This document shows, in pieces, positions 12,651 through 41,563 of a DNA stretch of 64,000 nt; position 1 is the first letter of the stretch; every line of letters starts with the position of its first letter. Both the position numbers and the translations under genes were made by a program. The notes beneath the pieces were generated by a model. It saw nothing but the letters and a program-made list of their open reading frames with translations. It was not told where the DNA came from and searched no databases. This DNA is from Liolophura sinensis (Eukaryota > Mollusca > Polyplacophora > Chitonida > Chitonidae): assembly GCF_032854445.1 (NCBI RefSeq), contig NC_088301.1, forward strand, positions 57,796,512 through 57,860,511. The letters are read 5' to 3'.

Positions 12651-15600
12651 AGAATCAAGTGTCGTGAATTGTTCTGCAATTGAAAGTAAGTTTTTAAGCA
12701 TATTGTCTTAACTTGATGAATTGAAGAAGAGAGATATTACTGGAATTTCGAAAAAAAGAAAAGAGACACACTTTACGTGAACAAACTCACTTAAGTTCAA
12801 GAAATAATGAGTAGTCCCTGTAATTGTATTAAGTACTATCAAACGTTTAGGACAATTTAAAAAAATCTCTCTGGGTAAGTAGGGGCACATCATAACATAC
12901 ATCTGCCAAATAACCACGCAGCAAACTTAAAATTACGATATGCCACATCACTACTGAAGAATTGTGTAACACAATGGACATGGCCGCCACATCACTACTG
13001 AAGAATTGTGTAACACAATGGACATGGCCGCCACATCACTACTGAAGAATTGTGTAACACAATGGACATGGCCGCCACATCACTACTGAAGAATTGTGTA
13101 ACACAATGGACATGGCCGCCACATCACTACTGAAGAATTGTGTAACACAATGGACATGGCCGTCATTTGCTGTGACCATCTAAAATCATAATGATGGTTT
13201 CAAGCGGTAATGTTTTGAAAACGTCTAATTGTTGTAATGTGTCAAAGTGACAAAACACACACCAGAAATTTTTTGGCATTAATCAAAAATTAGGTAAAAC
13301 TTCAAAGCTAACATCTTTTTTTTTCACAGTGGTAGCATCTGCCCGGTTTGCTGTCTTTATTTTCGCTGGTTTGACAGTACTACTATGTATTTGCCTGTTG
13401 CTTCTCTTCTTTGGTGGAATCCTTTTGTTGCAATTTGTGGTAAGAAGTAAGTGTTCCACTCTTACTTCACTTAAATTTCTCTTAAGATTATTTTACCAAG
13501 AATACGTTTTGGTCACATCTGTTATAACGACATGTATCAACAAACTTGTACAAGACTTTTTTGCTGTTAAGGTAGAAGTTTTCTTTAATCTTTACAGTAT
13601 AGATGAATTTCACGTGACTCAGACAAACCATCTTTCAATCACAGGCAAATGTAACGAAGCTCCTATGCGGCCATTTCCGTCGTTTTTATATTTATCTCAA
13701 AGAAAAAATAGCCTGTGTGTTTAAAGTAACAAATTGACTCACTAATTTGTGGTTCAACTAAGTCCAGTAACATTATGACAAAAATATAAATAGTTTTGTC
13801 ATATTTAGTGGAAGAAGACATTTTTTTTCTTCAGTGGCAAGAAGGAAATTACTAAGCTATATTTCACTAACATTCTACCTATGACATATTTCTCTGTTTT
13901 CTGTTGATAGAACTTTTTGTTCTCTTGAAACGTTCATTAACAGTTTTTAATGTCTCATAACATTTAGTTCTGTAAAAAGCATCTGTTTCCAACAACATAT
14001 ACTACTGCACTGTGCCACTTGTAAGATACAGGAGGGCATCTGCTTATTAGAAATCAAGGTATTGTTGTAAAAACAATTATCATTTTGAAATTTTTTTGTG
14101 TTGTGAATTTTTATTGTTCTATTTTTGCCAGGAACCCAGCGCAACAAGGTATCTAGCTCAACGTAAGTATACAACCATACTTTCTGAATAAACACAGTTT
14201 AAGAGAAACGTAGTGTATACATGCTTTTTATTTCATGACTGAAAACACTAAGCCACTTAACTCCTCCTATTTACTTGAGTGTACATGTACTGTATCCAAT
14301 TTTCCGTATGCAGGCAACATGAGTATACATTCTTTTTATTTCATGACTATAATCGTTAAACCACGTAACTACTGCTATCTAAAGGAGTGTACATCTACTG
14401 TATCCAATTTTCCTTATGCAGGCAACTTGTGGCTACAGAATTGTCCACCGCGACGGATTATACGTCTGTACCTTGTCGTGAGTATATTAACTTGACAAGT
14501 AAGTTGACAAGAGGCCGAATTTCACCGGTTAAGTGAGAACACTTGGCAACTCACCTACTGTTGAGCCTGCCCTGTGTAATTGTATTCTCCATGTGTATAG
14601 TTTCTTTCATATTTTGTAAATAAGAGCTGACCGAATCGTATAAGTTAAATATTCTTGGTTACGGCATAAAACACCAATTAAACATATAAACAAATAGATA
14701 AGCTTGTGCTCTTTGTAAATTTTTTTAGATGAACGCCAGATTGAATTGCTCGGTGTTCATCAACCTTTTGAGGAACCCAAGACGGTAAGTATTACACCGT
14801 AACAAATTACACTGTAATTTTCCAGTGAAAAGTGCTAGCAATTTTGTGACCAGTTCTTTTCACTGTAGCTTTACAACATGTGCTGTTTAATATTAACACC
14901 CAAAATAGTAGTATATTTCCATATATACCATTGTAAACAATCGGTTTACTCCATTGCAAATTAAGAAAATTAACATATCTAACAAGAAAACCAGTGTACA
15001 TTTACAGCAAAAAGTGCACTGTCAATGGGAAGACCGCTACAGTTTTACAGACAATGCTCTAAATGCACATCGTCTAAAGTAAACTTACAGATATAGGTGC
15101 AGAATTGCGCTGGAAAATGGTGTAAAATATTTACAACATTTACTGATTTACTGTAACAATATACAGTGCATCAGGCTGTAAATTTGCATTCAATTCTTAC
15201 AGTGTAAGCTTTTTCAAATTATCCATTTTGACAACCACGCCAAAGTCCATATATTCTGATATGATCTCAAAGCTTTACATACATAATGTGACAACACCCA
15301 CGCGTTTATCTTACTTAGATATAGACCGTCGTCATATAACGGATAGGCTCTTCGTGCTGCACGTAATTGTGACATCAAATTGTCTTGGATACATATGTGT
15401 AGTTCTACGACAACATCAGATCACAAGGTCATTGAACTATATTTTAAATACCCTTATAAAGGTTCAAGTAGAAGTATAATTCCAAGCGAAAAATAAAAAA
15501 ATAAATAAATAAAAAGTTGACACAGTTAAATGATTATTTGAATTTTTTTTTATCATTCTTTGAAATGCATTATACCTGCTACGTTCCACTGTTCACTAGT

Positions 15601-39800: not shown

Positions 39801-41563
39801 AAAAGAATTTCACAGTACATGCATTCCATGAACAGAAATATCCTGTAGTTGGGGTGCTCTTTTTATTCATCAATAGGTGGTTATGTAAAATTAAGTAGAT
39901 GAATTCTGCATTCTGTATGATATTCTCTAATATTATGCAAATTTGCACAATGGGAATTTTGTCAACTTTTGCACAATTTCAAAAATTTAGGCGTATAATC
40001 ACTATCTGTTTATTACAATGTAAATAACAACTATTAATTGAATGTATACCTTCAATTTAATGCATTAAGAGCAAAACCGGGCGGCAAGTGGTGATATGTT
40101 ATATAAATCGGCTCTTACTTGTAGAAGAAGGACAGATGTGCGGAAGAATTTCTGGGTCGCAATGTGGCACAGCTGGGTCCTGCACCTGACAGAGAATTGT
40201 CTCGCACTGCGGAGAGAGTAGACACCGCCTGTGTTCTTCATGGTCTGGTAGGGGGTGGCCTACAGGATGCCAGCTCACCTGAAGAAGCGTGCCGTTGTAG
40301 GTCGGATGGTATTGGCGGTCTAGGAGATAGACTGACAGGAAAACACAAAAACAACCCGTGAATAAGAACAGCCAGACAAACTACATAAACGCTACATCTA
40401 ATGTTCAAGCAGTTGATATGTTATCTGTAAAGGCGTTAAAGCCACCGTTCTAGATCTCGGCTTTGATTATACCATCTCTAGTGCTGTGAACAGGCTGGGG
40501 GATGTACACTTTTAGAGCTGAAAGACATAACTCATAAGCAACATAAAATGCCACGCTTCAGCCAGATATATTAGGTTTTCGAGACAAAGTAACGAAAAAT
40601 TAGAATTTAAGATACAGACATTTAAGATATTCACGCTCACGTGTCAGGTCTGGTGGAGACGTTACAGCTAAAAAGGCTTTCTCAATATTTAAACTTATGT
40701 ATTTGATGTACTCAAGAACTGTATGTCGCAAGTAAGACGGAGATTTATTAAAAGGCTGGAGAAAACCTCAGTTCTTTGACATGTGGCACAGATATTTCCA
40801 CGCGCAGAGCGAACAAAATTTGTACATGGTTTACTGGTGGTATATATGAATGTCCAACTTGACGCTTCGTCCTGATGTTAGGTCTAAAGCACTGCCCTAT
40901 ACGATGGTTGACAACTGGGCCACTAAGACCCCGAAAGGTGGAGGCAGAGGAAACTCACAAATAACATTTCTATGTTAAAAGAAAACACATAACCAGACCA
41001 AATGTATACAAATGTATATACGCATCGATGAAATATGCCTCATACAGTTTGAAAAAACGTAGCGTTTTATGTTCATGATGCTGCATCGCCGAAATACCGT
41101 GTTCAAAGTACCATAAAACGTGCACATTAAGAAGATGTAAATAGTCACAGTCAGACGCTAGTTATTTTTCTATAACCTGATAACTCAAATATTCTCGATG
41201 ACGTCAACCCAACCCTGTTTTGCCTTTTAGGCATAAGACAGCGTTGTATACGATTGGCGTGATCATGCTTCCAGTTGCTCTAACGTGGCACATATCATAG
41301 CTTCGTAAGAATTAGTTACCCAGCACTAAAGAAAGATGTGGTTGTGGACGTTTTGGTTGTTATTTGTTGTCTTTCCTTTTAAGGTCCGATCATACTTCAA
41401 GGCCTTCATCTTATAATTTTACCATGCAAAACAACAGAGGTGACTCACTTGTCTCCATACATTTGCCCTGTAGGAGAAAGGTACACGCCTCTCTCTGGCA
41501 ATATGTAGTGATGTCATTACAACACTCTTCATTCATATCAAGCGAGTGAGCTGGCTCCCCCAT
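36813..41563 (-). CDS. Gene D: single-pass membrane protein with a Ser/Pro/Asn-rich ectodomain and a tyrosine-rich tail
   Basis: Six coding exons chain in phase on the minus strand: 41563-41449, 40331-40119, 39787-38885, 38510-38342, 38044-38014 and 37724-36813, giving 780 residues. Residues 1-109 are Cys-containing (ECCND, CQREAC, CETILC). Residues 110-410 are Pro/Ser/Asn-rich and mucin-like. The membrane helix is near 436-459 (ILAGGIVGGALLALFMV), followed by KRRK. The tail of about 320 residues has an SH3-type PPVPYR and an ITAM-like DYEEL-x11-YEEL pair (Y536, Y551). It also has YEPL, GYEVPI, DYFVL and, close to the end, SYAEVGHEYLDL. No signal peptide precedes the chosen ATG (41563), and all frames from the upstream acceptor meet stops, so the true N-terminus may lie in an unseen exon. 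A 72-nt in-frame intron-like segment sits in exon 2. Family not recognised; a signalling receptor is inferred. Confidence 0.78.

Follow-up and report, generated by a model that had tools for sequence, protein, structure and literature searches.

A complete four-Ig receptor gene and three partly resolved single-pass genes lying side by side in the chiton Liolophura sinensis

The DNA analysed, referred to below as the window, comprises 64,000 nucleotides of contig NC_088301.1 of Liolophura sinensis (assembly GCF_032854445.1, positions 57,796,512 to 57,860,511, forward strand). An original prediction made from the sequence had placed between positions 12651 and 41563 a cluster of four receptor-like membrane genes, A, B and C on the plus strand and D on the minus strand. 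This was confirmed in part: the interval consists of one complete receptor gene with four immunoglobulin (Ig)-like domains (B) and three partly resolved single-pass genes (A, C and D). The observation largely holds, with gene B complete and genes A, C and D incomplete. What the locus presents are open reading frames with fitting splice sites, membrane helices, the Ig domains of B and an excess of acidic-flanked docking tyrosines in the tails.

The exon models were assembled manually from both strands of the sequence, with the predicted coordinates known beforehand, and are not independent of them; the agreement in the position of the first exon of A (12651) and of the ATG of D (41563) has to be read in that light. 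Each model contains the single membrane helix that had been anticipated, with best 19-residue Kyte-Doolittle means of 3.06 (A), 2.56 (B), 3.01 (C) and 2.67 (D), helices and signal peptides being judged by hydropathy alone. No other gene had been expected within the cluster, and the extra low-scoring models that a gene parser placed in and around it were taken as noise.

To the extent that a single genome can tell, gene B (19621-28363, plus strand) is a real and complete gene. It runs from Met to stop in eight exons, encodes 546 residues and has every intron in phase 1. The protein begins with a signal peptide, followed by four Ig-like domains and a single membrane helix; its short tail holds two tyrosines of the SH2 type, in GYEVP and DYVNT. 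Signal peptide and helix were both recognised by hydropathy. Its exons are:

19621..19681, plus strand: exon 1, ATG and signal peptide MTHFTPLLTLWCVFVLMVGT with a hydrophobic core (donor score 5.1)
20626..20871, plus strand: exon 2, Ig1 (Pfam Ig_5 0.0021, below cut-off; C-W-L-C pattern by eye)
21489..21803, plus strand: exon 3, Ig2, 315 bp, phase 1-1 (C2-set_3 1.4e-4, below Pfam cut-off; weak acceptor, -0.3)
22683..22997, plus strand: exon 4, Ig3, 315 bp, phase 1-1 (Ig_2 1.3e-7 and C2-set_2 4.4e-6, above Pfam cut-off)
23561..23875, plus strand: exon 5, Ig4, 315 bp, phase 1-1, core Cys positions not occupied by Cys (I-set 0.025-0.034, below cut-off)
25091..25258, plus strand: exon 6, membrane helix and KLRRKN stop-transfer (hydropathy 2.56; poor acceptor, -3.9)
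25547..25636, plus strand: exon 7, cytoplasmic tail (phase 1-1, donor 5.4)
28233..28363, plus strand: exon 8, tail with GYEVP and DYVNT, then stop (exon model, motif count)

The four Ig domains expected of B were recovered as four Ig-type exons and, in the whole protein, as five Ig families above the Pfam cut-offs: Ig_3 (8.9e-11), I-set (2.2e-9, matching three stretches), C2-set_2 (9.6e-9), C2-set_3 (1e-8) and Ig_2 (5.2e-8). When the exons were searched singly, Ig3 alone passed a cut-off, Ig2 being moderate and Ig1 and Ig4 weak. By eye, the core Cys-Trp-Cys pattern is kept in Ig1 to Ig3, and Ig4 is without both Cys. The best relatives of Ig2-4 among solved structures were SYG-2 (6.4e-8, two stretches) and then CD276 (4e-6).

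Several other features were seen in and near gene B. Exons 3, 4 and 5 (21489-23875) are identical in length and phase. The intron between Ig2 and Ig3 holds a 310-bp tandem repeat of 100% identity (21903-22524), which points to a very recent duplication or to an assembly error. A long minisatellite at 26261-28010 takes up much of the last intron; its unit of about 21 bp, as judged by eye, is TTGGCTTACATCACACAAGAC. It is open in several frames and so gives rise to spurious long open reading frames (ORFs). Upstream, at 16963-17035, a second signal-peptide-like start (MRNISLLVSVFTFIIDA) has a phase-1 donor that fits exon 2, and may be an alternative first exon.

Gene D (41563-36813, minus strand) is very probably a real gene, with its start unsettled. 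Behind a long ectodomain rich in Pro, Ser, Thr and Asn come one helix and the tail, in which 16 tyrosines and the stretch RPLPARP are found. Its exons, two of which stay open for 303 and 301 codons, are:

41449..41563, minus strand: first recognisable exon, rich in Cys, with the ATG at 41563 and without a signal peptide (exon model)
40119..40331, minus strand: Cys-rich ectodomain exon (acceptor in the top 0.4%, donor in the top 1.2%)
38885..39787, minus strand: Pro/Ser/Thr/Asn-rich ectodomain exon, 301 codons open (acceptor 5.1 and donor 5.8, both top-ranked in the window)
38753..38773, minus strand: tentative 21-bp exon (phase fits, moderate splice scores)
38342..38510, minus strand: membrane-helix exon with two juxtamembrane Cys (hydropathy 2.67; weak donor, -0.3)
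38133..38211, minus strand: tail exon (exon model, splice scores)
36813..37724, minus strand: last exon, 303-residue tail stretch with 15 of the 16 tail tyrosines, then stop (open frame)

The stretch CCVKRRKDGK stands right after the helix of D, so the tail is probably inside the cell. The ATG at 41563 has an in-frame stop just upstream and no convincing signal peptide. An N-terminal part of about 440 residues is unlikely to be carried across the membrane without such a peptide, which makes it probable that the model lacks a first exon. Scanning of 40300-52000 for it gave weak candidates only, at 46989 and 42284, and neither was accepted. In domain searches of D nothing exceeded a Pfam cut-off and no weighty PDB match turned up; the helix exon matched TM_ErbB1 at 3e-5, below the Pfam cut-off. 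In having a juxtamembrane pair of Cys and a long tail with many docking tyrosines, D resembles the transmembrane adaptors LAT, PAG and LAX. These have almost no ectodomain, however, whereas D has those 440 or so residues before its helix.

Gene C (30607-35244, plus strand) was recovered as the 3′ end of a single-pass gene, with two ectodomain exons, a helix exon, two tail exons and the C-terminus EIFV, which resembles class II PDZ ligands:

30607..30709, plus strand: first recognisable exon, ectodomain (acceptor 1.4, donor 2.5)
31305..31455, plus strand: ectodomain exon (acceptor 0.4, donor 3.8)
31748..31924, plus strand: membrane-helix exon (hydropathy 3.01)
34016..34117, plus strand: tail exon (weak donor, -0.7)
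35021..35244, plus strand: last exon, 74 residues, EIFV and stop (exon model)

C has a single tail tyrosine, which is located right at the membrane and matches no docking motif of the acidic kind. No relative of C was found in Pfam or PDB, and a hydropathy scan of 25500-31300 revealed no signal peptide. The repeat fragments upstream of C, seen by eye, are presumably of the tRNA type.

Gene A (12651-15749, plus strand) consists of a helix exon and tail exons preceded by an ectodomain of at most 11 residues; the remainder of that ectodomain must lie beyond the repeat-dense 4.4-11.8 kb region or have been lost. Its exons are:

12651..12685, plus strand: first recognisable exon, ESSVVNCSAIE (acceptor in the top 1.0%, donor in the top 0.5% of window sites)
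13330..13446, plus strand: membrane-helix exon (hydropathy 3.06; acceptor in the top 0.3%, donor in the top 0.6%)
14132..14162, plus strand: tail exon (acceptor 5.4, donor 2.9)
14422..14498, plus strand: tail exon with TDYTSV and REYINL, the latter lost if the alternative donor after 14477 is used (donor 3.9 vs 1.3)
14729..14784, plus strand: tail exon (acceptor 2.1, donor 4.5)
15702..15749, plus strand: probable last exon, GYPTIRRK and in-frame stop TAA (a donor at 15741, score 2.8, would permit a further exon)

The likely tail motifs of A are thus TDYTSV, REYINL and GYPTI, with REYINL resting on the donor at 14498 (3.9, against 1.3 for that at 14477). A last exon at 15815-16077, included in a first model, was dropped; A reads to the stop at 15749, and the discarded ORF resembles a repeat tail, which we take to be like that of a tRNA-type short interspersed element. 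A weak signal-peptide candidate at 4048/4093 (mean 2.06) has a donor whose phase fits the first exon, but it leaves no ectodomain and was not accepted. Between 14215 and 14437 the sequence is duplicated in tandem, the copies being offset by 108 bp and showing 83% identity over 115 bp; the second copy holds the acceptor of the docking-tyrosine exon.

The exon chains were compared with those arising in 300 shuffles, counting the shuffles that reached the observed chain at strict, middle and loose splice-site thresholds. The counts were 0, 0 and 12 for A, 2, 1 and 18 for B, and 2, 0 and 0 for D. The neighbouring CDK-type kinase gene, used as a control, gave 171, 37 and 78 of 300, so that a negative result in this test means little. 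In the region of A, the strict chain has six phase-consistent exons and is identical to the model, which reads through its last donor to the stop at 15749. With loose thresholds, a chain of the same length, six exons, is also obtained from the opposite strand. These counts replace those of a first, poorly designed version in which the last exon needed no donor (11, 38, 54 and 0 of 200 for A, B, C and D). Codon use, trained on B and compared with 2000 null sets, gave full scores that no null set reached for B and D, and P = 0.011 for C. Synonymous choice alone gave 0.024 for B, 0.0005 for D and 0.14 for C. This last score does not pick out the true frame, some wrong frames of B and D scoring higher, so that only the full score carries weight, and the full score leans on amino-acid make-up. 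A codon-trained parser divided B among three models and returned no complete C. Trained on the codons of B, C and D, with A itself left out, it picked five exons of A; it also skipped the helix exon of A and merged the A exons with repeats in a model extending from 8239 as far as a GA microsatellite at 16726.

These results bear on the view that A and C are pseudogenes, that is, decayed or transposon-truncated 3′ ends, and that B and D are the only working genes. It would account for the lack of an ectodomain of A before 12651, where the sequence turns repeat-dense, and for the chance-level codon use of A. The same can be said of the missing signal-peptide exon of C and the repeat fragments lying upstream of it. 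On the other hand, A retains six in-phase exons with strong splice sites and C five open exons with the codon score given above, and decay of the two seems to us a minority possibility, deserving attention without being the expected outcome.

Concerning the tails, a docking tyrosine was defined by us as YxN or Yxx[ILVMP] with Asp or Glu within the four preceding residues, and each tail was shuffled 20,000 times. Acidic-flanked docking tyrosines, which had been claimed for A, B and D, are present in these three and absent from C: 2 of 3 tyrosines in A (P = 0.035), 2 of 2 in B (P = 0.016), 0 of 1 in C and 6 of 16 in D (P = 0.008). Over all four tails the count is 10 of 22, with P = 5e-5 under our own motif definition. 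The description of the interval as grouped single-pass genes with tyrosine-motif tails stands for B and D and, reasonably, for A, C being single-pass without such a tyrosine. B and D also have the 5-mer GYEVP in common; when the tails are shuffled, the sharing of any 5-mer has P = 0.03. In terms of SH2 preferences, DYVNT and REYINL would be of the Grb2 type and GYEVP of the Crk/Nck type.

As to other motifs, the classical immunoreceptor tyrosine-based activation motif (ITAM), YxxL/I x6-12 YxxL/I, is absent from the tails of A and B. Yxx[ILVM] does not occur in B and is counted six times in D; YTSV and YINL of A, judged by eye, are only 4 residues apart. The pattern [ILVST]xYxx[ILV] of the inhibitory and switch motifs (ITIM/ITSM) occurs once in A (TDYTSV), within chance (P = 0.16 on the first A model), and not in B, C or D. 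A search with the joined tails of A and B returned a single PDB match, with an E value of 1.2.

No clear relationship among the four genes emerged. A tandem family of the KIR/LILR sort was considered and is not supported: tblastn of gene pieces against the window gave cross-gene matches only at E about 4 (queries without the B tail and the D middle exon), and pairwise shuffles of nine between-gene pairs, with the D middle exon left out, gave 1/200 for the A and D tails, 4/200 for A-C, 14/200 for the B and D tails and at least 28/200 for the rest. The lowest of these values, including that of the A and D tails, are marginal for nine tests, and the A-C alignment follows the helices. The four proteins are not clearly paralogous and so form no evident tandem family; the interval gives the impression of different genes placed next to one another and not of a family grown by duplication.

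Such lack of paralogy is also what would be expected if the adjacency were accidental and the genes encoded adhesion or guidance receptors of development or of the nervous system, with B of the SYG-2/Kirrel/nephrin kind. The Ig domains of B match SYG-2 best, ahead of CD276, and are of the C2-set_2 type, a family above its cut-off; C, for its part, ends in the PDZ-like EIFV, comparable to the PDZ-like C-terminal ends that neurexins and syndecans carry. However, SYG-2-type matches can be obtained from any Ig protein. Members of the Kirrel/nephrin family have five or more Ig domains, five in Kirrel proteins, and a class I PDZ end, whereas B has four domains and no evident end of that class. B by itself could about equally well be an Ig receptor for adhesion or guidance; for the interval as a whole we consider this explanation doubtful, though it is one to be taken seriously.

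The interpretation that we favour, and hold to be somewhat probable, is that of four neighbouring, not clearly related genes for single-pass cell-surface proteins, with B, D and A signalling through tyrosine docking in their tails. The Ig domains of B would bind a ligand, and a Src-family kinase would phosphorylate GYEVP and DYVNT; the phosphorylated tail might then recruit SH2 adaptors of the Crk/Nck and Grb2 types and lead to Ras/ERK. D may act as a stalked surface protein whose tail offers a multi-site SH2 docking platform, with the RPLPARP stretch available to SH3 proteins. A would have a short docking tail of the same sort as B and D (TDYTSV, REYINL and GYPTI), and C, with no acidic-flanked docking tyrosine, is probably attached by its EIFV end to a PDZ scaffold. 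Phosphorylation, partners, ligand binding and any immune role are all things that we infer beyond the sequence motifs. A complex of all four proteins, proposed in the original prediction, is not claimed here.

Several results weigh against this interpretation. A, C and D were not confirmed as complete genes, all three being incomplete at the 5′ end; the hydropathy scans gave only weak signal-peptide candidates for A and D and none for C. Domain searches, which had been advised for the four proteins, bore fruit for B, with its Ig families above the Pfam cut-offs, and gave no Pfam domain above cut-off for A (searched in its first model), C or D. The splice chain of C is weak, being reached by 90 of the 300 shuffles under strict, 6 under middle and 47 under loose thresholds, and A is without codon-use support (P = 0.17; synonymous choice 0.28). 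Once the acidic residue is no longer required of a docking tyrosine, B and D drop to P of about 0.10 (2/2, P = 0.096, and 8/16, P = 0.097, with 3/3, P = 0.028, for A and 1/1, P = 0.33, for C). With the shorter A exon, the excess in A is gone (1 of 2 tyrosines, P = 0.21).

Set beside known systems, the interval is plausibly a receptor neighbourhood, the kind being one already described from snails and oysters. The nearest kind for B is oyster CgIgIT2 (Crassostrea gigas), a mollusc precedent that combines several extracellular Ig domains with a single helix and a tail bearing tyrosine motifs, and that acts through ERK; it has five Ig domains and a classical ITAM, whereas B has four and no ITAM, the two being set side by side by description and not by sequence (PMC11999971). 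For the neighbourhood, the nearest kind is that of the Biomphalaria clusters GRC and PTC2, where single-pass genes also lie adjacent without all being related in sequence, three of the four models here being incomplete. Single-pass genes make up 7 of 15 in GRC (PMC4361660) and 8 of 11 in PTC2, the class amounting to 11% of all B. glabrata genes (PMC7494358). For both clusters, hyperdiversity and a link to schistosome resistance are reported; fibronectin III domains occur in four GRC genes, and PTC2 genes are reported to have no known domain apart from the helix (PMC4361660, PMC7494358). The Ig domains of B set the present interval apart. The defining trait of GRC and PTC2 is extreme polymorphism between haplotypes. 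A search of the literature found no description of this chiton cluster, which is not evidence of absence.

It is on this resemblance that a further explanation is based, namely an innate-recognition or allorecognition cluster of the GRC/PTC2 type, in which polymorphic single-pass receptors are held together by selection. Allorecognition receptors proper, such as Alr of Hydractinia and fuhc of Botryllus, are characterised by a polymorphic self ligand and by a role in fusion or rejection. Four adjacent single-pass models, not all related in sequence, agree with it, and at the 11% background four out of four would occur with a probability of about 1.5e-4 (own arithmetic, uncorrected for window selection), a figure that is not a test, as the window was chosen for its single-pass genes. 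The incompleteness of three of the four models speaks against it, and we regard it as unlikely. More speculative still, and in our opinion very improbable, is the idea of an unrecognised invertebrate receptor module. In it, unrelated single-pass proteins encoded side by side would have matched docking motifs, YxN being common to A and B and GYEVP to B and D, with C as a PDZ-anchored partner; they would converge on the same SH2 adaptors and jointly serve recognition at the haemocyte surface.

Elsewhere in the window, the first gene that can be recognised beyond the four lies on the minus strand at about 61.1-56.9 kb and encodes a CDK-type kinase, presumably CDK20, one exon of which matches Pkinase (8.6e-11) and CDK7 (3.4e-9), the rest coming from the parser; its exon 57432-57584, searched alone, had no Pfam match. 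At 59902-60742, just below the first kinase exon and in a presumed kinase intron, there is a tandem repeat of about 98 bp in roughly eight copies. By eye, a minus-strand ORF with a C2H2 zinc-finger-like stretch was seen at 9300-9567, in a repeat-dense region, and a reverse transcriptase-like fragment at 478-2297. Rfam (gathering thresholds) and tRNA scans of the window were empty. The repeats look molluscan in type; two patterns taken from a SINE-like repeat, with some positions relaxed, matched nothing in the collections genome_contigs and viral_contigs.

Should the genes be expressed in haemocytes and vary between individuals, they would add another invertebrate example to the known clusters of single-pass receptors, with explicit docking tyrosines tying recognition to a known signalling route, and how such clusters signal would become directly testable. 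Otherwise, B and D would be two ordinary surface receptors.

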